Below are positions 7,964-49,312 of a stretch of 64,000 nt of DNA, one piece after another. The translations under genes were made by a program, and so were the position numbers. The stretch lies in assembly GCF_029975155.1 (NCBI RefSeq), contig NZ_JARKPQ010000299.1, positions 1 through 64,000 on the forward strand, in the 5' to 3' direction. The notes beneath the pieces are model-generated. The model saw only the letters and a list, made by a program, of their open reading frames with translations. It searched no databases and was not told the origin of the DNA. Each line of letters starts with the position of its first letter. Position 1 is the first letter of the stretch. This DNA is from Propionicimonas sp. GTDB lineage: Bacteria; Actinomycetota; Actinomycetes; Propionibacteriales; Propionibacteriaceae.

Positions 7964-9196
7964 ATGACCACACCCGCGCAGCCGTCCAGCCAGGGCCAGG
8001 CCGTCCAGCTGGCATCGCCCGACATGCTGAACCTCACCCCGCCCGCACCGCCCGCGGTGGTCACCGAGACCCAGGCGCCGGCCATGGCGCCCCAGGTCGA
8101 AGCCGCCCAGGTCCCGGTGCTGGACGCGAAGGTGAACGACTTCCTGACCGCCCTCAACTCGACCGAGGCGAACTCCCCCACCTTCTCCGCCCAGGCGGAC
8201 GCGGTGCGCAGCATGGGCGACGCCGACATCCGCAAGGCGGCAGAGACGTCCAACCGGCTGCTGCAGACCCCCGTCCGGGCGATCGAGTCCGGCGGGCTCG
8301 CCGAGACCTCCAAGGTGGGCAAGACGCTGCTCGAACTGCGCCGCACCGTCGAGGACCTCGATCCCGCCCAGACGAAGGGCAGCAAGGGCTTCTTCTCCAA
8401 GCTGGGCTTCGGCAAGCAGGTCACCGACTACTTCCGCAAGTACCAGAGCTCCCAGGACCACCTCAACGGCATCCTGCACGCGCTGCGCTCCGGCCAGGAC
8501 GAGCTGACCAAGGACAACGTCGCCCTGAACATGGAGAAGCAGAACCTCTGGACGGTGATGGGCCGGCTCAACCAGTACGTCTACATCGCCGAGCGGCTGG
8601 ACGCGAAGCTCGCCGCCCAGATCGCCGAGCTCGAGCTGAGCGACCAGGAGAAGGCGAAAGCCCTGAACCAGGACGTGCTGTTCTACGTCCGTCAGAAGCA
8701 CCAGGACCTGCTCACCCAGCTCGCGGTGTCGATCCAGAGCTATCTGGCGATCGACATCATCATCAAGAACAACGTCGAGCTGATCAAGGGCGTCGACCGG
8801 GCGTCCACCACGACCGTGTCCGCCCTGCGCACGGCCGTGATCGTGGCCCAGGCGCTGGGCAACCAGAAGCTGGTGCTCGACCAGATCACCGCGCTGAACA
8901 CCACGACCTCCGAGATGATCCAGCGCACCTCCGAGATGCTGAAGGAGAACTCCGCGCAGATCCAGGAGCAGGCTGCGTCCTCGACGATCGGCATCGAGCA
9001 GCTGCAGGCCGCGTTCGCGAACATCTACTCCACGATGGACTCGATCGACCAGTTCAAGCTGAAGGCGCTCGACACCATGGCCGCGACCATCGGCACCCTG
9101 GAGACCGAGGTCGCCAAGAGCAAGGCCTACCTCGAGCGGGTCGCCCAGCAGGACACCCGCGCAGCCTCCCTGCCTGCGCTCTCGATCGACCGCTGA
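7964..9196 (+). CDS. TelA-family toxic anion resistance protein
   Basis: A 410-aa mostly helical soluble protein of the TelA family (toxic anion resistance, PF05816). Family hallmarks are MGDADIRKAAETSNRLL, an FSKLGFGKQVTDYFRKYQ segment, and a long helical rod with IDIIIKNNVELIKGVDRAST in the middle. The Pro/Ala-rich first 45 residues look disordered. TelA proteins are linked to tellurite and membrane stress and are often encoded next to XpaC; the molecular role is not settled. First gene of the 11.7-kb operon, with an AGAGG ribosome site nine bases before the ATG. The next gene starts 7 bp after the stop and is XpaC-like, matching the known TelA-XpaC pairing. Confidence 0.85.
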   Translation: MTTPAQPSSQGQAVQLASPDMLNLTPPAPPAVVTETQAPAMAPQVEAAQVPVLDAKVNDFLTALNSTEANSPTFSAQADAVRSMGDADIRKAAETSNRLLQTPVRAIESGGLAETSKVGKTLLELRRTVEDLDPAQTKGSKGFFSKLGFGKQVTDYFRKYQSSQDHLNGILHALRSGQDELTKDNVALNMEKQNLWTVMGRLNQYVYIAERLDAKLAAQIAELELSDQEKAKALNQDVLFYVRQKHQDLLTQLAVSIQSYLAIDIIIKNNVELIKGVDRASTTTVSALRTAVIVAQALGNQKLVLDQITALNTTTSEMIQRTSEMLKENSAQIQEQAASSTIGIEQLQAAFANIYSTMDSIDQFKLKALDTMAATIGTLETEVAKSKAYLERVAQQDTRAASLPALSIDR

Positions 9197-9203
9197 GGAA
9201 CAG

Positions 9204-9905
9204 ATGGGTTTCTGGGACCGGGTACTGGGACGCGAGGAGCCGCTCGAGCCCGAACAGGAGGAGCAGACGGCAGCCGCACCGACGGCCACCGACATCAGCT
9301 CCTCGCTGGACGGCGTCGAGCGGCTCGTCGCCGACCCGGTCGTGCCCGGCGTGGTCCGGGCGCGCGCGCTCGCGATCACGCGGACGGTGCGCAAGACCCT
9401 GCCCCGGCTCGACCTGCTCGGACTCGGCAGCTACGACTCCTACTCGGTGGTCGCCACGGCGACCGACTACCTTCCGGAGGCCATCGGCGCCTACCTGCGC
9501 CTCCCGCGCGACTGGGCCGACTCGCGTCCGGTCGAGGGCGGCAAGACCTCGCTGCTGCTCCTGGTCGACCAGCTCGACCTGCTCGCCGTCACGATGGACG
9601 CGATCTACGACGCCGCCAACACCACGGACGCCGCAGCCCTGGTCCGCCACGGCATGTTCCTCAAGGCCCGCTTCGGCCACGCCCAGGCCCCCGACCTGAA
9701 CCTCGCCGTCCCCGCCGCCACCCGCAGCGTCTCGACGAGCTCGACGACCGATTCCTCGGCCGAACCGACGGTCGAGCCCGTCGAGACCTCCCAACCGCTG
9801 CCTGAGGAGCCGGGCGCCGGCGAGCCTCTTCCCCCAACGGTCCCTGAGGAGCGTCCGAGGAACGAGGACGCGTCACGAAGGGCCTCCGGAGGCAGCGCAT
9901 CATGA
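9204..9905 (+). CDS. XpaC-like TelA partner protein
   Basis: 233 aa. Residues about 40-170 form an all-helical domain containing a YLPEAIGAYLRLPRDW segment, GGKTSLLLLVDQLDLL and GMFLKARFG. This resembles the C-terminal bundle of XpaC proteins, which partner TelA in other bacteria. No transmembrane segment or enzyme motif is visible. The last 60 residues are low-complexity Pro/Glu/Ser sequence produced by two dispersed repeats (VEPVET and PLPEEP peptides), so the functional part ends near residue 170. The stop overlaps the next start as ATGA. Assignment rests on the helical pattern and the neighbour, so it is moderate. Confidence 0.6.
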   Translation: MGFWDRVLGREEPLEPEQEEQTAAAPTATDISSSLDGVERLVADPVVPGVVRARALAITRTVRKTLPRLDLLGLGSYDSYSVVATATDYLPEAIGAYLRLPRDWADSRPVEGGKTSLLLLVDQLDLLAVTMDAIYDAANTTDAAALVRHGMFLKARFGHAQAPDLNLAVPAATRSVSTSSTTDSSAEPTVEPVETSQPLPEEPGAGEPLPPTVPEERPRNEDASRRASGGSAS

Positions 9906-11575
9906 CCACCCCAACGCTCTCCGCCGCCCTCGCCGCCCTCGCCGCAGCGGCCACCGCAGCCGGCCTCGACCCCACCGCGGCAACGGAGGAAGGCCTGGTG
10001 CTCTCCGCCGCCGTCGCCGAGTCGAACCGCGGCGCGTTCGTCGACTGGTGCCGGGAGGCCGGCGTCCCGACCTCTGCCGAGGCGTTCATGGACGCGGCCG
10101 TCCGCGGCCGCCGCTACCGCGCCGCGCCGACGCCGCTGGCGAGCCAGGCCGCGGCCTCCGGGAACGCGAGGGCCGCCGGCTATGCCCACGCTCTGGCAGA
10201 GGTCTGCCATGCCGCCGCGACGCTCGGCGAGGCCGGCCCCGCGGCCCTCGGCGCAGCCAGCCTCGCCGCCGCCGCCCAGCTGCCGGGCACCGGCCGTTCC
10301 GCTCCGGCGACCCCGCCCGCCGCGGACGACGCCGCCCAGCGCGAGTTCGTCCGCCAGGCGCCCGCGATCCTCACCGACGTGCTGGCGCGCCTGCACGAGA
10401 GCCAGGATCGCCTGCTCGACGTCACCCGACTCGACCCCGCAGCCGGCGGTGCGTTCCCCGGCCTCGGCGGCGCGCCGTTCCCGACTCCGACCACTCAACC
10501 GCTCCCTGAGGAACCGGGGAACGAGCCGGCGTCACGAAGGACCGTCGCCGACGACACCCCCCAACCGCAGGTTGAGCCTGTCGAAACCCCGGCTCCCGAA
10601 GAACCCGACGAGCCCGAGAAGACCGTCGAGGAATGGCTGGCCGAGCTCGACGAGCTGATCGGCCTGGCCAGGGTGAAGACGGAGATCCACCGCCAGACCG
10701 CGATCCTGCGCGTGGACTCGCTGCGCACGAAGGCCGGCCTGAAGAGTCCGACGATGACGCGGCACCTGGTGTTCACCGGCAATCCCGGCACCGGCAAGAC
10801 CACGGTCGCCCGGCTCGTGGCCGGCATCTACAAGGCGCTCGGCCTGCTCAGCAAGGGCCAGCTGGTCGAGGTCGACCGATCGGAGCTGGTCGCCGGCTAC
10901 CTCGGCCAGACCGCGATCAAGACGGCCGAGGTGGCCGCGAAGGCCTACGGCGGCGTGCTGTTCATCGACGAGGCGTACGCGCTCAACGGCGACCAGTACG
11001 GCGAGGAGTCGATCAACACCCTGGTCAAGGAGATGGAGGACCACCGCGACGACCTCGTGGTGATCGTCGCCGGCTACACCGCGCCGATGGCGGAGTTCAT
11101 CTCCAACAATCCGGGCCTGGCGAGCCGCTTCCGCACCACGATCGGGTTCGACGACTACACCGACGAGGAACTGCGGCAGATCTTCACCCAGATGGCCGCG
11201 AAGGCCGACTACGACCTCGGCGACGGCGTGCTGGACGAGTTCAACCGGCAGCTGGCCGACCAGAGGCGCGACGAGACCTTCGGCAACGGCCGCTACGCCC
11301 GCAACCTGCTGGAGGCCGCGATCGGGCGGCACGCCTGGCGCCTGCGCGAGATCGAGGAGCCCACCCTCGAGGAACTCCGCACCCTGCTGCCCGAGGATCT
11401 GCTCGACGAACACGCAACGTCCCCTGAGGAGACGCCCTCTGGAACGGTCCCTGAGGAGCCGAGCGCCAGCGAGACGTCACGAAGAGCACCCCACCTGAGC
11501 GACCTCACCCCGCCCGCCTCGGCCGCCCCGATCGAGCCCGTCGAGTTCCCCGCGCCGCCGACGGAGCCCTCATGA
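9902..11575 (+). CDS. CbxX/CfqX-type AAA+ ATPase
   Basis: 557 aa. Residues 1-180 form an Ala-rich helical region without known motif; 190-245 is a repeat-derived PEEP/VEPVET linker. 245-500 is an AAA+ domain of the CbxX/CfqX (RuBisCO activase-like, EccA-like) class: Walker A GNPGTGKT at 293-300, Walker B GVLFIDEAYAL at 351-361, sensor 1 near VIVAGY, and arginine finger region GLASRFRTTI. The C-terminal 60 residues are again repeat-derived. Such ATPases remodel or disassemble protein complexes; here a partner within the TelA/PknG operon is the natural substrate. Start ATG overlaps the previous stop, and its stop overlaps the next start, both as ATGA. Confidence 0.85.
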   Translation: MTTPTLSAALAALAAAATAAGLDPTAATEEGLVLSAAVAESNRGAFVDWCREAGVPTSAEAFMDAAVRGRRYRAAPTPLASQAAASGNARAAGYAHALAEVCHAAATLGEAGPAALGAASLAAAAQLPGTGRSAPATPPAADDAAQREFVRQAPAILTDVLARLHESQDRLLDVTRLDPAAGGAFPGLGGAPFPTPTTQPLPEEPGNEPASRRTVADDTPQPQVEPVETPAPEEPDEPEKTVEEWLAELDELIGLARVKTEIHRQTAILRVDSLRTKAGLKSPTMTRHLVFTGNPGTGKTTVARLVAGIYKALGLLSKGQLVEVDRSELVAGYLGQTAIKTAEVAAKAYGGVLFIDEAYALNGDQYGEESINTLVKEMEDHRDDLVVIVAGYTAPMAEFISNNPGLASRFRTTIGFDDYTDEELRQIFTQMAAKADYDLGDGVLDEFNRQLADQRRDETFGNGRYARNLLEAAIGRHAWRLREIEEPTLEELRTLLPEDLLDEHATSPEETPSGTVPEEPSASETSRRAPHLSDLTPPASAAPIEPVEFPAPPTEPS

Positions 11576-12798
11576 CCCAGGTGACCGCATCCCCGGGGGT
11601 CGCGACAGCGGAGTTCCCGCCGCCGGTCCCGTCCCGCACCCCCCAACTGCTGCGCCGGCTGCAGGTCGTGGTCGCGCTCGCCGTCCTGATCGCGGGTGCG
11701 GTCAGCGTGTGGGTGATCAGCGATCTGCGCAATGACCTCGCCGCCGCGCCGAACCTCGCGCAGCAGTACGCGCGGCTGGGCCAGGTCCAGCACAGCCTGA
11801 CCCGGGCCGCCGACCTCGCGGCCCGCAGCGTCGTTGCCGGGCAGAACCCGCAGGGAAGCGCCGCCGTCGCGGCGAACAAGGAGGTGGCAACGGCCAACGG
11901 GCTGCTGATCGCGGCCGCGAAGGACCGTCCACAGGACGCGGACGCACTCACCACGCTCAGCCGCGGGTTGCTCGACTACTCGGTGAACATCCACGCCGCC
12001 GCGGGCGCCAGCCGGGCGACGGCCCTGCCCCTGCTCGCGGACGCCGCCGACCAGCTCGACCACCTCACGAGCCAGATCGACACCCTCCAGAAGCAGCTCA
12101 GTACCGAGGCACAGGCGCGTCCCTGGAGCCAGGGCTCCCCCGCCGCCCTGCTGGTGGCGCTCGCCGTGATCGCGGGCATCGGCTGGGTCAGCTGGGTGCT
12201 GGCGCATCGCAGTCACCGGGTGCTGAACGTCGGCCTGGTCGCCGCCGCCGTCGCCGTGCTGGTGGTACTCGGCATGACCACCGCGGCGCAGGGTGCCGCC
12301 TCGGCGGCGTCCGACACCAGCCGGAACGTGCAGTTCACCCACGTCGTGAACGCGACGGCGGCCGTCACCGAGCTCGACACCGCGCAGCACGTGCTGACCA
12401 CCGCCGTGCTCACTCAGGCCTGGACGACGTCCTCGGGTTCGGCCTATTCGAAGGCCTTCGACGCGGCCAGCGCCGCAGCCGACCGGGAGAGCCTCGCCGG
12501 GCTGAAGACCTTCGACCAGGCGAAGACGTCCCTGGCCACCCAGATGACCAAGGGTGACTGGACGGCGGCGTCTACGTCCCTGCTCAGCGGGGACGCCAAG
12601 GGCCTGAACGAGGCAGCGGACGCGTTCCGTGACCGCGCCGACGCCGTCGTGTCCTCCGCCACCGCCACGGCAGCGGACGAGCCGCAGAGCGCCCGCTCGG
12701 GCCTGATCCTGCAACTGGTGATCGCGATCGTCCTCGCCGTCGCCGGAGCCGCCCTCGGCGTGATCGGGATCGACCGACGGCTCAGGGAGTACCGATGA
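11572..12798 (+). CDS. GlnX-like four-helix membrane sensor protein
   Basis: 408 aa with four predicted membrane helices (about 30-50, 191-211, 218-238 and 378-400). The two intervening stretches (about 51-190 and 239-377) are helical, Ala/Thr/Gln-rich and lack Arg/Lys clusters, as expected for extracytoplasmic sensor domains. This topology and its place beside pknG match GlnX, the mycobacterial membrane protein that passes amino-acid sensing by GlnH to PknG. No glnH lipoprotein gene is present in this operon. The assignment rests on topology and neighbourhood more than on motifs. Start overlaps the AAA ATPase stop (ATGA). Confidence 0.65.
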   Translation: MTQVTASPGVATAEFPPPVPSRTPQLLRRLQVVVALAVLIAGAVSVWVISDLRNDLAAAPNLAQQYARLGQVQHSLTRAADLAARSVVAGQNPQGSAAVAANKEVATANGLLIAAAKDRPQDADALTTLSRGLLDYSVNIHAAAGASRATALPLLADAADQLDHLTSQIDTLQKQLSTEAQARPWSQGSPAALLVALAVIAGIGWVSWVLAHRSHRVLNVGLVAAAVAVLVVLGMTTAAQGAASAASDTSRNVQFTHVVNATAAVTELDTAQHVLTTAVLTQAWTTSSGSAYSKAFDAASAAADRESLAGLKTFDQAKTSLATQMTKGDWTAASTSLLSGDAKGLNEAADAFRDRADAVVSSATATAADEPQSARSGLILQLVIAIVLAVAGAALGVIGIDRRLREYR

Positions 12799-12863
12799 AC
12801 ACCCCACGCAGTTCTTCTCCTCCGCTGCGCTCCCCCGAACAACTCCGCGGGGAGGCCGCATGA
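12795..12863 (+). CDS. 22-aa bridging mini-ORF between glnX-like and coiled-coil genes
   Basis: An ATG overlapping the glnX-like stop (ATGA) opens a 22-codon frame whose TGA overlaps the ATG of the next gene (again ATGA). It fills the only sizeable gap (61 bp) in the middle of the operon. The peptide (MNTPRSSSPPLRSPEQLRG...) has no recognisable family. It would let terminating ribosomes reach the next start. Part of it may be repeat-derived. No homology evidence, so low confidence as a functional peptide. Confidence 0.35.
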   Translation: MNTPRSSSPPLRSPEQLRGEAA

Positions 12864-13987
12864 CCACCGTGTCCCCCGCCGCCCCCGGCCAGCTCGGCGT
12901 CGCCGCGCGGCCGGCCGACCTGCTCGCCTACCTGGGCCGGCTGGACGCCTGGCTGGGCGGGCGCCGCGCCGAACTCGACGCGCTGGACGAGCAGATCGTC
13001 TCCTCCGGTCGCCAGGCCGAACTCACTCAGGACATGGCCCTCGCCCTCGCCCTGTGGCAGGCGGCCAAGACCCGGCAGAACCTGCTGCTGGCCACCTGGG
13101 ACTCCGGCCGGGTCGGCCAGCAGGAACTCGAGCGCCTCTCCGCCCTGATCTGGGGGCGGCTCGACACCGCAGGCAGCGAGGTGGCCCAGTTGCAGTCGAT
13201 GTCGGTGTCGCTGCCGGAGGCCGGCCGCCTCTGCGACGCCCTGGTCGCACAACTGCGCACCCGCCTGGACACCGATCCCAACGCCGAGCAGCAGCAGATC
13301 CGGCTTCGGGACCTGCGTGCCCAGCTCGAGCGGATCCGCGATCAGGTGAAGCTCGAACCGCCGGCCCTCGCCCCCGCCGCACAGGCCAAGCTGGCCGTGC
13401 TGGTGACGCGCACCACGGAGCTCGCGGACAAGCGGACGCGGGGCGGCGACATCGGCGGGCTGCTGGGAACGCTGGAGATCGACGCCGCGCGGCTCGAGCG
13501 CGACCTGATCGTCGGCGCTGCCCAACGGCGGGAGGCCCGCGACCTGCTGACCAGGGCACGGGAGCAGCTCGCCGAAGCCTCCGCGCGCGAGCAGGCGGTC
13601 CGCTCGCTCGCCGCGCAGGTCGGCGCGTCGGTCTGGCCGGCGCCGGACGCCGTCCTGCCGAGCGTGGCAGGGCTGGGGCCGGTGCCCAACACGCGCACGG
13701 CGCTGGTGGGCTACGTCGACGGACTCACCCGGGTGGACGCCCAGCTCAACGACGCTCACGCGGCGCTCACCCGCGCTCTCGCCCAGCGGGATGCGGCGGC
13801 GTCACTGCTGGCGGCGCTGCAGGCGAAGGCGAACGGCCTGGGCCACGCCGCGGACGCCCATCTGCAGGAGATCGCCGCGGCGGCCACGAGCGCGCTGGCC
13901 GGGAGCCCGGTCGTGCTGCCGGTCGTGCAGCAACTGCTCAACGCGTTCTCCGCCCAGCTCGACTACCTGTCGGGGAGCCGGCGATGA
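12860..13987 (+). CDS. Cytoplasmic coiled-coil protein of the PknG operon
   Basis: 375 aa, no signal peptide or membrane helix, rich in Ala, Leu, Glu, Gln and Arg with heptad-like spacing over most of residues 20-270 and 300-370. I do not recognise a family. It occupies the position between glnX and pknG where glnH lies in other actinobacteria, so it may be a structural adaptor linking the membrane protein to the kinase; that is inference. A GGGGAGG ribosome site lies seven bases before the ATG. The stop overlaps the pknG start (ATGA). Confidence 0.75.
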   Translation: MTTVSPAAPGQLGVAARPADLLAYLGRLDAWLGGRRAELDALDEQIVSSGRQAELTQDMALALALWQAAKTRQNLLLATWDSGRVGQQELERLSALIWGRLDTAGSEVAQLQSMSVSLPEAGRLCDALVAQLRTRLDTDPNAEQQQIRLRDLRAQLERIRDQVKLEPPALAPAAQAKLAVLVTRTTELADKRTRGGDIGGLLGTLEIDAARLERDLIVGAAQRREARDLLTRAREQLAEASAREQAVRSLAAQVGASVWPAPDAVLPSVAGLGPVPNTRTALVGYVDGLTRVDAQLNDAHAALTRALAQRDAAASLLAALQAKANGLGHAADAHLQEIAAAATSALAGSPVVLPVVQQLLNAFSAQLDYLSGSRR

Positions 13988-16290
13988 CGTGCGCGCAGCC
14001 GGGCTGCACCGGCACCATCGTCGACGGCTACTGCGACGTCTGCGGCATGCCCGGCAGCACCATGCCAGTGGGTCGGGGGGTGCCGGGCGGCCGGCCGTCC
14101 GTCCGGGCCACGGGCGCCTGCCGGCAGCCCGGCTGCCCCGGGCACATCGTGGACGGCTACTGCGACGTCTGCGGCGCGCCGGACGCCCCGCCGGAGTCCC
14201 CGTCCGCGCCGCTGTCGCCGGGCTCCTCGGTGACCAGGACCTCCATCCACCTCGGCTCGACGGCGCTCGGCTCGGCGCGGGCCACGTCCTTCGGTGGCCG
14301 GCCCAGGCGGCACACCAGCTCGGAACGGCTCACCACCGGCCGGATCGGGGCGGGCCTCACCCGCGTCCCGCCGGCCCCGGCGATCGACCCGAGCAAGGCC
14401 GTGCTGGCCAAGCCGGAGGTGCCGCTGGACGCCCGGGTCTGCGCGCGCTGCGGCGCCAAGGTCGGCCAGGGAGCGGAGAACGTGGCGTCCCGGTCGGAGG
14501 GCTTCTGCCCCTCCTGCGGGGCGCCGTACTCCTACACGGTGAAGCTGAAGTCCGGTGACGTGGTCGCCGGGCAGTACGAGGTCGTCGGCGCGCTGGCCCA
14601 CGGCGGCATGGGCTGGATCTACCTGGCCAAGGACCGCAACGTCTCCGGCCGGTGGGTGGTGCTGAAGGGGCTGCTCAACTCCGGCGACCGGGACGCCGTC
14701 GCCGCCGCCATCGGCGAGCAGCGCTTCCTCGCCCGGGTGGAGCACCCGCAGATCGTCGAGATCTACAACTTCGTCACCCACGACAACGCCGGCTACATCG
14801 TGATGGAGTACGTGGGCGGTCGCTCGCTCAAGCAGCTGCTGAAACAGCGGATGACGGCCAATCACGGCGAGGCCGATCCGCTGCCGGTCGACCAGTCGCT
14901 GGCGTTCCTGATCGAGATCCTGCCGGCGCTGGGCTACCTGCACGAGCTGGGTCTGCTGTACTGCGACTTCAAGCCCGACAACGTGATCCAGGTCGGGGAC
15001 TCGCTGAAGCTGATCGACCTCGGCGGCGTCCGGCACATCGGCGACGAGGACTCGGCGATCTACGGCACGGTCGGCTTCCAGGCACCGGAGGTGGCCACGC
15101 TCGGCCCGTCCGTCGCCTCCGACATCTTCACGGTCGGCCGGACGCTGATGGTGCTCAGCGCCGAAGTGCCCGGCTACCAGACAGAGTACGAGTCGCGGAT
15201 CCCGCCCGCGGACGAGCTGCCGGCGTTCGCGGCGCACGACTCGCTGTACCGGCTGCTGCTCAAGGCCTGCGCGGCCGATCCGAACGACCGCTTCACGTCC
15301 GCGGAGGAGCTGCGTCTGCAGATGCTGGGCGTGCTCCGCGAGGTGGTCGCCGCGGCCACCCCCGGCGTCGCCACGACGGCCGCGTCCTCGGTCCTGTTCG
15401 AGGCCCCGACCGTCGCCAGCGAACGATACGGGCAGCGGCAGTTGCCCCGGCTGCGTCCGGACCCCTCGGACTCGCAGGCGGCGTGGCTGTCCCGGATCAG
15501 CGTGGAGGACCCGGTGCAGCGGCTCGCCGCTCTGTCCGCCCCGCCGTCGGTGTCACCGGAGGTGCTGCTCGCCCGGGGCCAGGCCGCGTTGGAGGCGAAC
15601 AATCCCAAGCTGGTGGACGAGTGCGTGCGCACGCTGCTGACCAACGACCCCTGGGAGTGGCGGGCCGTCTGGCTGGCCGGCCTCGGGGCCCTGCAGGCAC
15701 GGGACTACAAGACCGCCCAGAGTTCGTTCAACGCCGTCTACGGACAGGTGCCCGGTGAGCTCGCGCCGAAACTGGCCCTGGCTCTGGCGTGCGAGCTGGG
15801 CGGCGAGCTCGACATCGCCGAGGGCCTGTACCGCACCTGCGCGAGCACGGACGCGGCGTACGTCACCCCCGCCGCTTTCGGACTGGCCCGGGTGCGGGCG
15901 GCCCGCAACGACCTGCCGGGGTCGCTGGCCGCGCTCGAACTGGTGCCGAGCACGTCCCGCGGCTACCCCGAGTCGCAGCGGCTGAAGACACGGCACCTGG
16001 TCACGCTGGCCGCGGACGGCAACGGCATGAACGAGGCGTTCCAGGCGATCGCGCAGGCACGGCTCGAGCCGGAGACCGAGGCGCAGTACGAGGCGCTGCT
16101 GTACCGCAGGGCGCTGACGCTCGCCGGCAACGGCAACCTGCGGCTGGGCGGCGAGACCCTCACTCCCGCCATGCTCCGCGACCGGCTCGCCGGCGCCTAC
16201 CGCGACCTCGGCCGTCTCGCCGACGACCCCGCCGTCCGCGCGGGCTACGTCGATGTCGCCAACTCCCTTCGTCCCTGGAGCCTGCTGTGA
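13984..16290 (+). CDS. pknG: PknG-type Ser/Thr protein kinase with N-terminal zinc modules and TPR tail
   Basis: 768 aa. The N-terminus has a duplicated C-x4-C-x8-C-x2-C module (C3/C8/C17/C20 and C46/C51/C60/C63), then the rubredoxin-like pair CARC (153-156) and CPSC (175-178) typical of PknG. The kinase domain runs from about 195 to 450: glycine loop AHGGMGWIY, Lys228 (VVLK), catalytic YCDFKPDN with Asp328 and no preceding Arg, and DLGG (Asp345) in place of DFG, as in mycobacterial PknG. TPR-like helices fill about 500-740. PknG phosphorylates FHA regulators of glutamate metabolism in mycobacteria. Here an FHA gene and a PP2C gene are in the same operon. The duplicated extra cysteine module is not found in the mycobacterial protein. 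ATG overlaps the previous stop; the next gene starts at the overlapping GTG. Confidence 0.93.
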   Translation: MTCAQPGCTGTIVDGYCDVCGMPGSTMPVGRGVPGGRPSVRATGACRQPGCPGHIVDGYCDVCGAPDAPPESPSAPLSPGSSVTRTSIHLGSTALGSARATSFGGRPRRHTSSERLTTGRIGAGLTRVPPAPAIDPSKAVLAKPEVPLDARVCARCGAKVGQGAENVASRSEGFCPSCGAPYSYTVKLKSGDVVAGQYEVVGALAHGGMGWIYLAKDRNVSGRWVVLKGLLNSGDRDAVAAAIGEQRFLARVEHPQIVEIYNFVTHDNAGYIVMEYVGGRSLKQLLKQRMTANHGEADPLPVDQSLAFLIEILPALGYLHELGLLYCDFKPDNVIQVGDSLKLIDLGGVRHIGDEDSAIYGTVGFQAPEVATLGPSVASDIFTVGRTLMVLSAEVPGYQTEYESRIPPADELPAFAAHDSLYRLLLKACAADPNDRFTSAEELRLQMLGVLREVVAAATPGVATTAASSVLFEAPTVASERYGQRQLPRLRPDPSDSQAAWLSRISVEDPVQRLAALSAPPSVSPEVLLARGQAALEANNPKLVDECVRTLLTNDPWEWRAVWLAGLGALQARDYKTAQSSFNAVYGQVPGELAPKLALALACELGGELDIAEGLYRTCASTDAAYVTPAAFGLARVRAARNDLPGSLAALELVPSTSRGYPESQRLKTRHLVTLAADGNGMNEAFQAIAQARLEPETEAQYEALLYRRALTLAGNGNLRLGGETLTPAMLRDRLAGAYRDLGRLADDPAVRAGYVDVANSLRPWSLL

Positions 16291-17495
16291 CCGATTCCGA
16301 GTGGCCGACCATGCCCCAACCGGTCCCTGAGGAGCCGAGCACCACCCCCACCCCACCGCTCCCTGAGGAGCCGAGCGCCAGCGAGGCGTCACGAAGGGCT
16401 CCCGCCTGCCCCGACTGCGGCGCCCCGATCGACCCGGCCGCCTGGTACTGCGAGGCGTGCGGCAACCCCCTGATCCCCACGGCCCCGGCACCCGCGTCCG
16501 CGCAGCCTCCGTCCGCCGATGCGCCGTCCACCCAGACGCGCCGGCTGGGCGCCAGGGCGAGCCAGCTCACCTCCTGCCCCGTGTGCGGCGGCACGGTCGG
16601 CTCCGACGGCTACTGCCAGACGTGCGGCGCGAAGGCGCCAAGCGCTCGAGACCACTTCAGCGAGACGCCCTCCGAGTGGGTCGGCGGGGTGTGCGACCGC
16701 GGCGTCCAGCACCACCGCAACGAGGACGCGATGGCGCTGTGGGCCGAGGACGGGCGGGCGGTGCTGGTGGTGTGCGACGGGGTGTCGACCAGCATCGACT
16801 CCGACGTGGCCGCGATGGCCGCCGCGGAGAAGGCCCGCGACGTGCTGGCCGAACGGCTCGGCGCGACCGGACCGGACGACGCCGCGCTGGCCGAGGCACT
16901 GGTGGCCGCGACGGCAGAGGCCAACGCCGCCGTCGTCGCCACGACGGCCGCGGACAGCACGAACGCTGCGTCCGCGACGTTCGCCGCCGCGGTGGTGGTC
17001 GGCGACCGGGTCCACTACGCGAACCTGGGCGACTCCCGGGTGTACTTCATCGGCGCGACCCAGCAGCAGCTGCTGAGCGTGGACGACTCGATGGCCCAGG
17101 CGTTCATCGCCGAGGGCATGCCGCGGGAGGAGGCGGAGGCCCTGCCGCGGGCGCACGCGATCACGAAGTGGCTGGGACGGGACTCGCTCGACATCGTCCC
17201 CCGCACCGGCGTCCTCGCGGTCCCGGAACCGGGCTGGCTGGTGGTCTGCTCGGACGGACTGTGGAACTACGCGTCCGCCCCGGAGGAGTTGGCCGCCCAG
17301 GTGGCCACGGCCACCGCCGGCACCGACCCGACCTCCTCCGCCCAGCGCCTGGTCGCCTGGGCGAACGCCCAGGGCGGCCACGACAACATCACCGTCGCCC
17401 TGGCCCGCGTCCCGGCGCCCACCGCCGAGGCCTCGTCGCCTACTCTGGGAGCGGCAGTCCCCACCGAACCGAAGGAGCAGCCTGACCATGGCTGA
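16287..17495 (+). CDS. PP2C-family Ser/Thr phosphatase with two zinc ribbons
   Basis: 402 aa from a GTG that overlaps the pknG stop. Two zinc ribbons occupy C41/C44/C55/C58 and C97/C100/C110/C113. The PP2C domain (about 131-390) shows RGVQHHRNEDA, VCDGVST (the metal aspartate motif), NLGDSRVY, CSDGLW and GGHDNITVA. It should reverse PknG phosphorylation of shared substrates. Residues 10-40 are repeat-derived PVPEEP/PLPEEPSASEASRRAP sequence. It overlaps the next start by 8 bp, so kinase, phosphatase and the von Willebrand protein are made together. The DGVST variant in place of DGxGG keeps the metal-binding Asp and is common in actinobacterial PP2C proteins by my recollection. Confidence 0.9.
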   Translation: MTDSEWPTMPQPVPEEPSTTPTPPLPEEPSASEASRRAPACPDCGAPIDPAAWYCEACGNPLIPTAPAPASAQPPSADAPSTQTRRLGARASQLTSCPVCGGTVGSDGYCQTCGAKAPSARDHFSETPSEWVGGVCDRGVQHHRNEDAMALWAEDGRAVLVVCDGVSTSIDSDVAAMAAAEKARDVLAERLGATGPDDAALAEALVAATAEANAAVVATTAADSTNAASATFAAAVVVGDRVHYANLGDSRVYFIGATQQQLLSVDDSMAQAFIAEGMPREEAEALPRAHAITKWLGRDSLDIVPRTGVLAVPEPGWLVVCSDGLWNYASAPEELAAQVATATAGTDPTSSAQRLVAWANAQGGHDNITVALARVPAPTAEASSPTLGAAVPTEPKEQPDHG

Positions 17496-18768
17496 GTTCA
17501 CCTCCGCCGTCTACCAGAACGAGTTCCTGCCCGACGGCGGAACCGACGTCAACGCGATCGTCACGATCAGTTGCACGGGCGCGGGTGCGGCCGGCCGCAC
17601 CGGCAGCGGGGACGCGGGCGAGATCGTCGTCGTGGACACCTCCGGTTCGATGGGGGTGGCGAACATGAACGCCGCCAAGCAGGCCGCGATGGTCGCCCTG
17701 GACAACATCCTCGACGGCACCTACTTCGCCGTCGTGGCGGGCAACCACAAGGCGTACCTCGCCTACCCGATGGTGCAGACCGGCGCCGGCATGGTCCGGA
17801 TGGACGCGCGAACGCGGGCCGAGGCCCGGCGGGCGATCAGCTTCTTCCGGGCCGAGGGCGGCACCGCGATGGGCACGTGGCTGAACCTGTGCAAGGCGCT
17901 GTTCGCGTCCATCGGGAACCTCGCGCAGAAGCACGTGATCCTGCTCACCGACGGCGAGAACCACAACGAGACCGCCGCCCAGCTGGACGCGGCGATCGCC
18001 AATTGCGCCGGCGACTTCCAGGTGGACGCCCGCGGTGTCGGCGTCGACTGGAAGGTCGCCGAGATCCGCAAGATCGCCCAGGCGCTGCTGGGCACGGTCG
18101 ACATCATCGGCGACCCCGGCCAGATGGGCGCGGTGTTCGCCGAGCTGATGCGCAGCTCGATGGCCCGCGGCGTGGCGAACGCGGACCTGCGGGTGTGGAT
18201 CCCGCAGGGTGCCCAGGTGCTGTTCATCCGGCAGGTCTCCCCCACCGTCGAGGACCTCACCCATCGCGGCACGCCGGTGAACCAGCTCACGATGAGCTAT
18301 CCGACCGGGGCGTGGGCCGACGAGGAGCGGGACTACCACATCTCCGTCCGGCTCGCCGCGAAGTCGGTCGGCCAGGAACAGCTCGCCGCGCGCGTGCAGC
18401 TGGCCGTCGGCCCCGAACTGCTCACGCAGGGGCTGGTGAAGGCCAAGTGGTCGTCCGACACGAACCTGACCGCGCAGATCAACCCGGAGGTGGCCCACTA
18501 CACCGGCCAGGCCGAGCTCGCGCAGGTCATCCAGGAGGGCCTCGCCGCCAAGGCCGTGGGTGACGAGGCGACCGCGACCACCAAGCTGGGACGCGCGGTG
18601 CAGCTCGCCACCGAGAGCGGTAATGCCGAGGCCACGGCCAAGCTGCGGAAGGTCGTCGACATCGCCGACGCGCGGACGGGTACGGTGAGGTTGAAGAAGG
18701 CTGTGGACAAGGTGGACGAGATGGCCCTGGACACGGCATCCACCAAGACCACGAGGATCAGGGGCTGA
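17488..18768 (+). CDS. von Willebrand factor A domain protein
   Basis: 426 aa, cytoplasmic. A complete MIDAS metal site is visible: DTSGS at residues 50-54, the Thr in EGGTAMGTW, and the Asp in LLTDGENHNE. The vWA domain covers about 45-220; the C-terminal half is beta-rich then helical (about 325-426), without a recognised domain. vWA proteins often scaffold AAA ATPases or bind ligands through Mg; the CbxX-type ATPase in the same operon is a possible partner. Only one base separates its stop from the FHA gene. Confidence 0.88.
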   Translation: MAEFTSAVYQNEFLPDGGTDVNAIVTISCTGAGAAGRTGSGDAGEIVVVDTSGSMGVANMNAAKQAAMVALDNILDGTYFAVVAGNHKAYLAYPMVQTGAGMVRMDARTRAEARRAISFFRAEGGTAMGTWLNLCKALFASIGNLAQKHVILLTDGENHNETAAQLDAAIANCAGDFQVDARGVGVDWKVAEIRKIAQALLGTVDIIGDPGQMGAVFAELMRSSMARGVANADLRVWIPQGAQVLFIRQVSPTVEDLTHRGTPVNQLTMSYPTGAWADEERDYHISVRLAAKSVGQEQLAARVQLAVGPELLTQGLVKAKWSSDTNLTAQINPEVAHYTGQAELAQVIQEGLAAKAVGDEATATTKLGRAVQLATESGNAEATAKLRKVVDIADARTGTVRLKKAVDKVDEMALDTASTKTTRIRG

Positions 18769-18769
18769 C

Positions 18770-19624
18770 ATGCCGATCTGCCCGGCCGGGCACCAGACGA
18801 ACGCCACGGACTTCTGCGACACCTGTGGCCTGCCGATCGCGCCCGGGGACGCGGCCGTCGCACCCGCCCCGATCCCGGCCCCGGTCGGCGGCCCGGTGAT
18901 CTGCCCGCACTGCCAGACCCCGAACGTCGCGGACGCCCTCTTCTGCGAAGCCTGCGGCTACGACTTCACCACCGGCTCCCTGCCCATCCCGGACGTCGGG
19001 GCCGCCCCCGAACCGTTGGTCGAGCCTGTCGAGACCACCCCCGAGCCGGAACCGTTGGTCGAGCCTGTCGAGACCACCCCCGAGCCCGCCGCGGAGCCGC
19101 CCCCCGAGCAGCCGAGCACCACTCCACCACCGCTCCCTGAGGAGCCGAGCGCCAGCGAGGCGTCACGAAGGGCCCCCCAGAGCCCCGCCGAGCCTCCCGC
19201 CCGTCCCCAGGTCGAGTGGGTGGCCGAGCTCTGGATCGACCCAGACTGGTACGCAGCCCAGGGCTCGTCCGACCCGCTGCCCTCCCCCGGCCTGCCCGAC
19301 ATCGTGCCGCTGGTGAAGCCGAGCAACCTCATCGGGCGCGTGTCCCACAGCCGGGGCATCTTCCCCGATGTGGACTGCGAGCTCGACTCCGGCTGCAGCC
19401 GCCGCCACGCCATGCTCACCACCGACGGCACCCGCTGGTGGATCGAGGACCTCGACTCCGCGAACGGCACCTTCGTCGGCGCCGCCGCCGGCCCCCTGCC
19501 CGCGATGCCGATCCCGCAGGGACGGGTCGAGCTCACCGCCGGCCAGCGCATCTACGTCGGCGCCTGGACCCGGATCGTCGTCCGCCGCGCCACCGAGGAC
19601 GAGCAGGAAGCCCTCGCCAGCTGA
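18770..19624 (+). CDS. FHA-domain phospho-threonine binding protein with zinc ribbons
   Basis: 284 aa. Two N-terminal zinc-binding segments (C4, C16, C19 and C45, C48, C59, C62), a Pro/Glu linker (about 75-150) built from dispersed-repeat peptides (VEPVET twice, PLPEEPSASEASRRAP once), and a C-terminal FHA domain (about 180-275). The FHA core residues are present: IGRVS, DSGCSRRHA and DLDSANGTFVG. It probably reads PknG phosphorylation, filling the role that GarA has in mycobacteria, but it is larger and different outside the FHA fold. Last gene of the operon; a strong hairpin repeat follows. Confidence 0.9.
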   Translation: MPICPAGHQTNATDFCDTCGLPIAPGDAAVAPAPIPAPVGGPVICPHCQTPNVADALFCEACGYDFTTGSLPIPDVGAAPEPLVEPVETTPEPEPLVEPVETTPEPAAEPPPEQPSTTPPPLPEEPSASEASRRAPQSPAEPPARPQVEWVAELWIDPDWYAAQGSSDPLPSPGLPDIVPLVKPSNLIGRVSHSRGIFPDVDCELDSGCSRRHAMLTTDGTRWWIEDLDSANGTFVGAAAGPLPAMPIPQGRVELTAGQRIYVGAWTRIVVRRATEDEQEALAS

Positions 19625-19625
19625 C

Positions 19626-19699
19626 CTGAACGGAAAGGAACCCGTCCCCTTTCCGTTCAGTCCTGTGAACGAAAAGGGGACGGGTCCCTTTCCGTTCAG
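19626..19699. repeat. REP-like double hairpin downstream of the FHA gene
   Basis: Outer arms CTGAACGGAAAGG and CCTTTCCGTTCAG frame a centre with CCCGTCCCC / GGGGACGGG. The AAAGG-GGACGGGTCCC-TTTCCGTTC design resembles REP elements that elsewhere accompany Y1/IS200-like transposases; no such transposase is in the window. Its place immediately after the last operon gene means it could also serve as the transcription terminator. Confidence 0.7.
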
Positions 19700-49218: not shown

Positions 49219-49312
49219 CCCACTGCTCACACGGGGTCTCGACAAGCTCGACCAGCGATTCACGGGGCAATGCCCCCAGGGTCTCGACAAGCTCGACCAG
49301 CGGTTTTATGCG
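49219..49312. repeat. GGTCTCGACAAGCTCGACCAGCG repeat pair
   Basis: Two copies of GGTCTCGACAAGCTCGACCA, 54 bp apart, in the gap between imuA' and pafA. Related units are translated in adnB, the AAA ATPase and the FHA protein. The second copy reaches into the last base of pafA's 3' flank. Confidence 0.85.

Follow-up and report, generated by a model that had tools for sequence, protein, structure and literature searches.

A Propionibacteriaceae form of an extended PknG signalling operon with a putative ArnAB-like vWA/FHA switch and a linked TelA unit

The 64,000 nucleotides of Propionicimonas sp. analysed here (contig NZ_JARKPQ010000299.1, positions 1 to 64,000; the window) carry nine co-directional, tightly packed genes on the + strand at positions 7964 to 19624, all of them confirmed where the preliminary description had placed them. 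The locus comes from a draft assembly of 404 contigs with 8.31% contamination. By gene content and order it appears to be an extended PknG signalling operon of the Propionibacteriaceae type, in which glnX, pknG and genes for a PP2C phosphatase, a vWA protein and an FHA protein occur together across several actinobacterial families. We give even odds to the reading that GlnX and PknG drive a vWA/FHA phospho-switch like the ArnAB pair of Sulfolobus, reset by PP2C, with the three leading genes (telA, an XpaC-like gene and an AAA gene; the TelA trio) being at least co-regulated with it. GlnX would relay an outside signal to PknG by way of an RxxEYR peptide at its C-terminus, which would engage the TPR groove of the kinase; in most relatives the input would be amino acids bound to GlnH, and in the window it may be direct, changed or constitutive. 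PknG would then phosphorylate GarA, which is encoded elsewhere, and also the vWA protein, on threonines in its C-terminal region. Before phosphorylation the zinc ribbon of the FHA protein would keep a loose hold on the vWA protein; afterwards its FHA domain would bind tightly, an arrangement known from ArnA and ArnB, until PP2C resets the switch. The TelA trio would act at the membrane, beside or downstream of these events.

To collect loci of this type, named genomes were scanned with the vWA protein as the query instead of TelA. The scan returned at least 569 relatives, of which the 80 best were retained, a set biased to the window's kin. With the window and seven clusters found through TelA, and after removal of L112 (a copy of L034), 87 loci were available. 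A locus was considered evaluable when both of its ends were in view. The XpaC-like and FHA genes are both held by 65 of the 87; among the other 22, 20 reach a contig end before the XpaC-like gene, as checked by lengths, and two with inserted DNA were completed from the genome. The order telA, XpaC-like gene, AAA gene, glnX, (glnH), helical protein gene, pknG, PP2C, vWA, FHA is unbroken and on the same strand in 67/67 evaluable loci. The helical protein gene is present in every one of them, telA in 66 (it is cut off in L150) and the AAA gene in 66 (it is absent in L123, a Propionimicrobium). Rows with weak evidence were counted as present, namely L146 (a PknG match of 24 bits and an AAA match of 119 bits, with broken frames), L096 and L113 (PknG frame broken) and L232 (GlnH at 250 bits). 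Carriers of this ten-gene set include Propionibacteriaceae, Nocardioides, Kribbella, Cellulomonas, Cellulosimicrobium, Oerskovia, Janibacter, Intrasporangium and Mobilicoccus. Enemella (L082) and Microlunatus flavus (L105) carry an insertion between PP2C and vWA and have complete upstream genes. An insert at the same place in L037 (13947-14990, - strand, in operon orientation) holds an oppositely directed gene with an HEVGH motif, which we take to be peptidase-like.

From telA to the FHA gene, the junctions in the window measure +7, -4, -4, +61, -4, -4, -8 and +1 nucleotides. Among the relatives, the 4-nucleotide overlap of the AAA gene with glnX recurs in 57 of 64 loci and is among the tightest junctions, thus tying the TelA trio to the PknG part; the same overlap is found at glnX/glnH (49/50), helical/pknG (50/65), vWA/FHA (44/65) and XpaC-like/AAA (38/64), and at pknG/PP2C in only 11/65. 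Apparent gene fusions, seen as shared frames (XpaC-like/AAA in L075, PknG/PP2C in L120 and two pairs in L146), were left unused and may be frameshifts of draft or metagenome-assembled genomes (MAGs). To judge from order and spacing, the genes almost certainly form one conserved operon and one transcription unit. The single operon of the preliminary description therefore stands as a conserved set in a conserved order, although the neighbourhood of TelA and PknG that it assumed is not general.

How far the set extends was examined in a class sample of 246 genomes, in which TelA exceeded its cut-off in 41, PknG in 77 and the vWA protein (at least 174 bits) in 49. These correspond to 42 TelA places (one 20-bit place was dropped), 99 PknG places and 61 vWA places at 174 bits or more, the last taken from a longer list (78 genomes at E<=0.001) with the partial or broken frames of G369 and G423 counted. 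PknG occurs in every one of the 49 vWA genomes and lies within 5 kb of the vWA gene, on one strand, in 46; in the remaining three, PknG is far away (G369, with a broken vWA frame) or on a different contig (G451 and G512). Forty stretches around PknG or vWA places were examined in other families. Family f4 and most of f86 have glnX, glnH, pknG, PP2C, vWA and FHA, with TelA not near; some members also match the helical protein weakly. In f85 the pknG-to-FHA part comes first and glnX-glnH after it, and some members are without vWA or more, while in f5 only glnX, glnH and pknG were seen, its PknG-bearing members being without vWA. Second copies and broken contigs hold fewer operon parts. The labels Streptomyces-like for f4 and mycobacteria-like for f5 are guesses.

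A PknG tree of 83 rows, rooted on three mycobacteria-like rows, places the ten-gene type in one clade (62 rows, Shimodaira-Hasegawa-like approximate likelihood ratio test 100, one change) that is nested among seven-gene rows. It includes 62 of the 65 loci, since L146, L096 and L113 offer only short PknG pieces, and the program warned of long branches meeting. This topology suggests that the TelA trio most likely joined an older PknG set once. On the same tree a ten-gene locus from a record titled Streptomyces sp. SID13031 (L135) groups with Kribbella, and its label may be wrong.

That the trio serves as an output of the switch is, in our estimate, doubtful, and such a role would be limited to this lineage. 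The trio may instead be a passenger, transcribed from a promoter in common with the PknG set but otherwise a membrane-stress unit in its own right that takes no part in the phospho-signalling, and we regard this as a serious prospect, somewhat short of an even chance. It is favoured by the single joining event and by the class sample, which weighs against a functional tie: among 29 genomes with both proteins, TelA lies within 12 kb of PknG in 8 and is unlinked in 21, and a further 12 genomes have TelA without PknG. The genomes in which part of the trio persists without PknG point the same way. L043 keeps TelA and the XpaC-like gene, and L033 (3790-6674) has TelA with the AAA gene immediately after it; this pair, about 71% identical to the window, is possibly a remnant of the cassette. 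Against the passenger stand the link kept throughout the clade and the AAA/glnX overlap described above. Moreover, the 18 sampled genomes of f2, a large family of the window's order, are all-or-none: five have TelA, PknG and vWA and 13 have none of them, apart from a generic 27-bit vWA match in one, though a single deletion of a linked block would give the same pattern. The association of TelA, XpaC and AAA genes with pknG, which the preliminary description took as the mark of one machine, is thus rare overall and universal within one clade.

The operon opens with telA (7964..9196, +), encoding a toxic anion resistance family protein of 410 residues (PF05816, E 8.8e-95). It is followed by the XpaC-like gene (9204..9905, +), whose helical product of 233 residues keeps its position in the relatives. 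The name XpaC, given to it earlier, is unsupported, as no XpaC-type Pfam match was found in 34 homologues at E<=1; TelA-neighbour proteins scanned from other families were also without such a match, and the structure model (predicted local distance difference test, pLDDT, 77) has no PDB match at E<=0.001. The third gene (9902..11575, +) encodes an AAA+ ATPase of SpoVK/CbbX type (557 residues; PF00004 and PF17866, AAA_lid_6), which among Pfam and NCBIfam models is nearest to those of SpoVK, EccA and CbbX, with TIGR02881 below cut-off.

PknG (13984..16290, +; 768 residues) has two N-terminal zinc ribbons, a rubredoxin domain (PF16919), a kinase domain (PF00069) and a TPR domain (PF16918). The PP2C gene (16287..17495, +; 402 residues, GTG start) encodes N-terminal zinc ribbons (PF12773) and a phosphatase domain (PF13672, 1.1e-15) whose motifs NEDA, DGVS, GDSR, SDGLW and DN are conserved in 65 loci. 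A ribbon of the form DGYC..CG occurs twice at the PknG N-terminus (14023-14178) and again in PP2C (16605-16631), and may be a docking element common to the two proteins. The vWA protein (17488..18768, +; 426 residues) contains PF00092 and PF18571 (VWA_3_C), with the residues of the metal ion-dependent adhesion site present; its nearest named relative, 95% identical, is from the MAG 'Actinomycetota bacterium isolate PROP2', followed by Propionibacteriaceae MAGs. The FHA protein (18770..19624, +; 284 residues) combines a double zinc ribbon (PF12773) with an FHA domain (PF00498), a layout like that of ArnA.

The vWA protein aligns over its full length with PDB 4FX5 (E 1.3e-107), a Catenulispora protein with a vWA domain, a beta-sandwich and a four-helix part, the build described for vWA2, the ArnB paralogue, in PMC6509490. 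Because this full-length relative has that build, the vWA protein is assigned an ArnB-type architecture. The best PDB matches of the FHA protein are ArnA (5a8i, 9.7e-9) and the ArnA chain of the ArnA-ArnB crystal (8s05_C, 1.3e-8), ahead of GarA (0.003). The vWA protein ends in DTASTKTTRI (18730..18759, +), a candidate PknG phosphosite and FHA ligand: the tail DTASTKTTR is exact in 58 of 65 loci, occurs as close variants in six and is absent in one. Tails of the S[TV]xT type also close 20 of 24 vWA proteins from other families; the four exceptions are mostly second-type copies. In Sulfolobus, the zinc finger of ArnA (zinc finger plus FHA) grips ArnB, and once the ArnB C-terminal domain is phosphorylated the FHA domain binds as well; phosphopeptides include IETTRR, and the system comprises the kinase ArnC with a TPR-like stretch, an opposing PP2A phosphatase and nutrient control (PMC6509490, PMC12852372). 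On paper the vWA/FHA pair would work like ArnAB, and we do not claim that it belongs to the same module.

Several observations weigh against this reading. The match of the vWA profile to ArnB itself (8s05_A) has an E-value of 0.006, covers residues 46-135 and ranks ninth of nine at E<=0.01, behind several unrelated vWA proteins, and Pfam VWA_3_C has no match in any control genome, Sulfolobus acidocaldarius included. The ArnA match of the FHA protein spans only 37 residues. Paired alanine changes of ArnB threonines left motility unaltered in Sulfolobus (PMC6509490, PMC12852372), which argues against a simple site model. In addition, 28 of the 77 PknG genomes are without this vWA protein, and PknG therefore works without a vWA switch in them. 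The weak matches and the alanine result led us to lower slightly our confidence in the boldest form of the proposal, a bacterial ArnAB counterpart wired to the transmembrane receptor GlnX docked on the PknG TPR groove, whose locked vWA-FHA complex would steer the TelA/AAA membrane unit in Propionibacteriales and part of Micrococcales, with a changed input where the receptor has no GlnH. This remains a tentative proposal and is, in our judgement, unlikely to hold in full. For the narrower claim, that GlnX, PknG, the vWA/FHA pair and PP2C act as one switch, anatomy and precedent would make it likely, at about one chance in two.

The PP2C, vWA and FHA proteins could alternatively be accessories of the known GlnX-PknG-GarA pathway, recruiting GarA phosphorylation and resetting it without any second output. 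Of 32 genomes searched, nearly all of them cassette-bearing, 30 have a GarA/OdhI homologue that scores above 130 bits, though mostly under the curated threshold of 200; so do 13/13 relatives searched beside the window's genome, three genomes being counted in both searches. GarA of this clade has the same layout of zinc ribbon, TT motif and FHA domain; its sites include ETTRI, DTTKV and DTTRV, TT-type in most of those examined, and the STKTTR of the vWA tail is similar to them. The two misses are an Intrasporangium flavum genome and the window's own draft assembly, where GarA was not found above 54 bits, probably owing to an assembly gap; this last absence also counts against our main reading. 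GarA is likewise present in 15/15 PknG-less genomes searched (all 13 cassette-less genomes of f2 and two further TelA genomes). The GarA branch therefore does not need PknG, a point that tells against the coupling we propose as well as against an accessory role, and what accompanies PknG steadily in these lineages is thus the operon itself. Since, moreover, mycobacteria-like genomes have PknG without vWA and the vWA tail has a conserved TT motif of its own, we think it improbable that the three proteins serve GarA only. Separately, VETT peptides of the window's FHA protein were considered as a GarA-like phosphosite of the mycobacterial kind and rejected, as they are a translated DNA repeat present at several places.

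At the other end of the switch, the membrane sensor is GlnX (11572..12798, +; 408 residues, four transmembrane stretches), as named in the preliminary description, and the sensor set given there proved to be incomplete: a tenth gene, glnH, had been overlooked because it is lost in the window. The window's GlnX matches NCBIfam NF058618 from end to end (1.2e-26), but its 93.8 bits fall short of the curated cut-off, 250, which its relative in L037 exceeds. The seven clusters found by way of TelA carry a gene of some 320 codons between glnX and the helical protein gene. Its product in L036 is a family 3 solute-binding protein (PF00497, 1.3e-21) with GlnH among its NCBIfam relatives, and place and kind match the GlnH of the known operon. 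GlnH, a solute-binding lipoprotein, is encoded directly after glnX in 52 of the 67 evaluable loci and is absent in 15, the window included, where a gap of 61 nucleotides (12799..12859) takes its place. A GlnH profile search of the window's assembly gave no strong GlnH (best 141 bits); across the 15 GlnH-less genomes the matches reach at most 172 bits, and two of these genomes have none at E<=1e-10, whereas four gene-bearing genomes score 395-524 bits. On the PknG tree glnH was lost twice, in the window's Propionibacteriaceae group and in Mobilicoccus.

In both of these groups GlnX diverges, with profile scores of 66-328 (15 loci) against 436-578 (50 loci). The median score ratio of GlnX in GlnH-less loci is 0.38, compared to 0.87-1.0 for seven other operon proteins (AAA and GlnH were left out of this calculation). 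At 99 positions conserved in at least 80% of the GlnH-bearing set, GlnH-less proteins retain the residue in an average of 37%. Residues that have disappeared entirely (e.g. G104, N157, N158 and D340, in the numbering of L036) fall in two outer stretches, and those kept include R231, N234 and G236 between the middle transmembrane helices and G414, R418, E421 and Y422 at the C-terminus. The last of these belong to a terminal motif, RxxE[YF] followed by at most one further residue, which is present in 50/50 GlnH-bearing and 12/15 GlnH-less GlnX proteins and in 31 of 32 from other families, including all three mycobacteria-like ones, and was found at the C-terminus in no member of nine other operon families. 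In the window the last ten residues are GIDRRLREYR (12766..12795, +). Short cytosolic GlnX termini have been proposed as typical of TPR partners, with no motif named in the available parts of that paper (PMC6069109), and the mode of GlnX-PknG interaction has been called elusive (PMC9769921). We therefore single out the C-terminal peptide as a candidate docking peptide that may bind the TPR groove of PknG.

The same divergence could mean that in GlnH-less clades the sensor end is decaying and that the drive comes from the rubredoxin (redox) domain of PknG, or from other kinases, and not from GlnX. The loss of glnH without a strong GlnH elsewhere in those genomes, the fall in GlnX scores, the shortening of GlnX to 281-338 residues in four loci and the presence of the rubredoxin domain are all consistent with this. 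GlnX nevertheless remains an open frame in all 15 loci and retains the inner-loop residues and the C-terminal G414, E421 and Y422, and PknG is undecayed (median ratio 0.94), so that we assign decay only a minor share of the probability. A role as an antiphage or TerY-P type conflict module is highly improbable: the vWA, PP2C and kinase genes stand next to each other, like those of TerY-P triads (PMC11090510), and PADLOC models match the kinase, but the PADLOC matches are generic (kinase, AAA, PP2C), PknG has its ribbons at the N-terminus and TPR at the C-terminus with no C-terminal zinc ribbon, and the set is stable within its clade and not scattered.

The remaining gene (12860..13987, +; 375 residues) was described earlier as coiled-coil. 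Its helical nature holds, and we relabel the product an all-helical protein on the strength of a confident AlphaFold model (pLDDT 94, predicted template modelling score 0.62). No PDB fold matches that model at E<=0.001, and 40 homologues gave no credible Pfam family. A sigma-70 consensus scan of the region found no site, which means little in such DNA, and a terminator scan found two terminator-like sites, both on the other strand, against 3.0 expected. A long inverted repeat lies 3' of the FHA gene at 19627-19699, with two related 34-nucleotide halves (TGAACGGAAAGG... / ...CCTTTCCGTTCAG), and was flagged as terminator-like on the other strand. In-frame interspersed DNA repeats occur at 9754-9884, 10491-10592, 11420-11566, 16312-16413 and 19002-19187, in linkers of the XpaC-like, AAA, PP2C and FHA genes, where they encode PEEPSASE(A/T)SRR and VEPVET; related copies of the VEPVET type are found near 2840 and at 49236-49298. 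The resemblance of these repeats to a GarA phosphosite is fortuitous.

In the open-access papers searched we found neither a description of the seven- or ten-gene operon nor a link between ArnAB and PknG; subscription papers, supplements and Figure 2B of PMC6069109, on operon conservation, lie outside this scope. With the activation of PknG by GlnX called elusive (PMC9769921), the operon offers concrete candidates, namely a nearly invariant GlnX tail that the TPR domain may bind, a possible second PknG output in the vWA/FHA pair with its ArnAB build, and a PP2C dedicated to the set. That glnH was lost twice in nature offers a ready test of the GlnH-GlnX model, and if the TelA trio is an output, the TelA family would gain a phospho-regulated role.

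The closest known system is the GlnH-GlnX-PknG-GarA/OdhI pathway (PMC6069109, PMC9769921, PMC8546545), with which the operon shares GlnX and a PknG with rubredoxin, kinase and TPR domains in the same operon and, in relatives, GlnH directly behind GlnX and GarA elsewhere in the genome. It differs in that the window is without GlnH, that helical, PP2C, vWA and zinc-ribbon FHA genes are added, genes not mentioned in the available parts of these papers, and that the clade has TelA, XpaC-like and AAA genes in front. The TelA-XpaC stress pairs (yaaN-xpaC, lmo1967-lmo1966; PMC12791056) likewise consist of TelA followed by a small gene, and associate TelA with envelope stress; here, however, the small gene is not a Pfam-recognised XpaC, and an AAA+ ATPase and the PknG set follow. 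The TerY-P triad also has vWA, PP2C and Ser/Thr kinase genes side by side, whereas the kinase of this operon carries N-terminal ribbons, rubredoxin and TPR in place of a C-terminal zinc ribbon and is linked to GlnX and FHA. Finally, ArnA-ArnB of Sulfolobus shares with the operon the combination of vWA, beta-sandwich and helical C-terminus with TT motifs, the zinc-ribbon FHA protein encoded next door, and the company of a TPR kinase, a phosphatase and, presumably, nutrient control. The kinase and phosphatase are PknG and PP2C here and ArnC and PP2A there, the vWA sequence similarity to ArnB is marginal, and the vWA-FHA complex is a putative one here; in contrast to the Sulfolobus system, the operon encodes a transmembrane receptor beside its putative switch.

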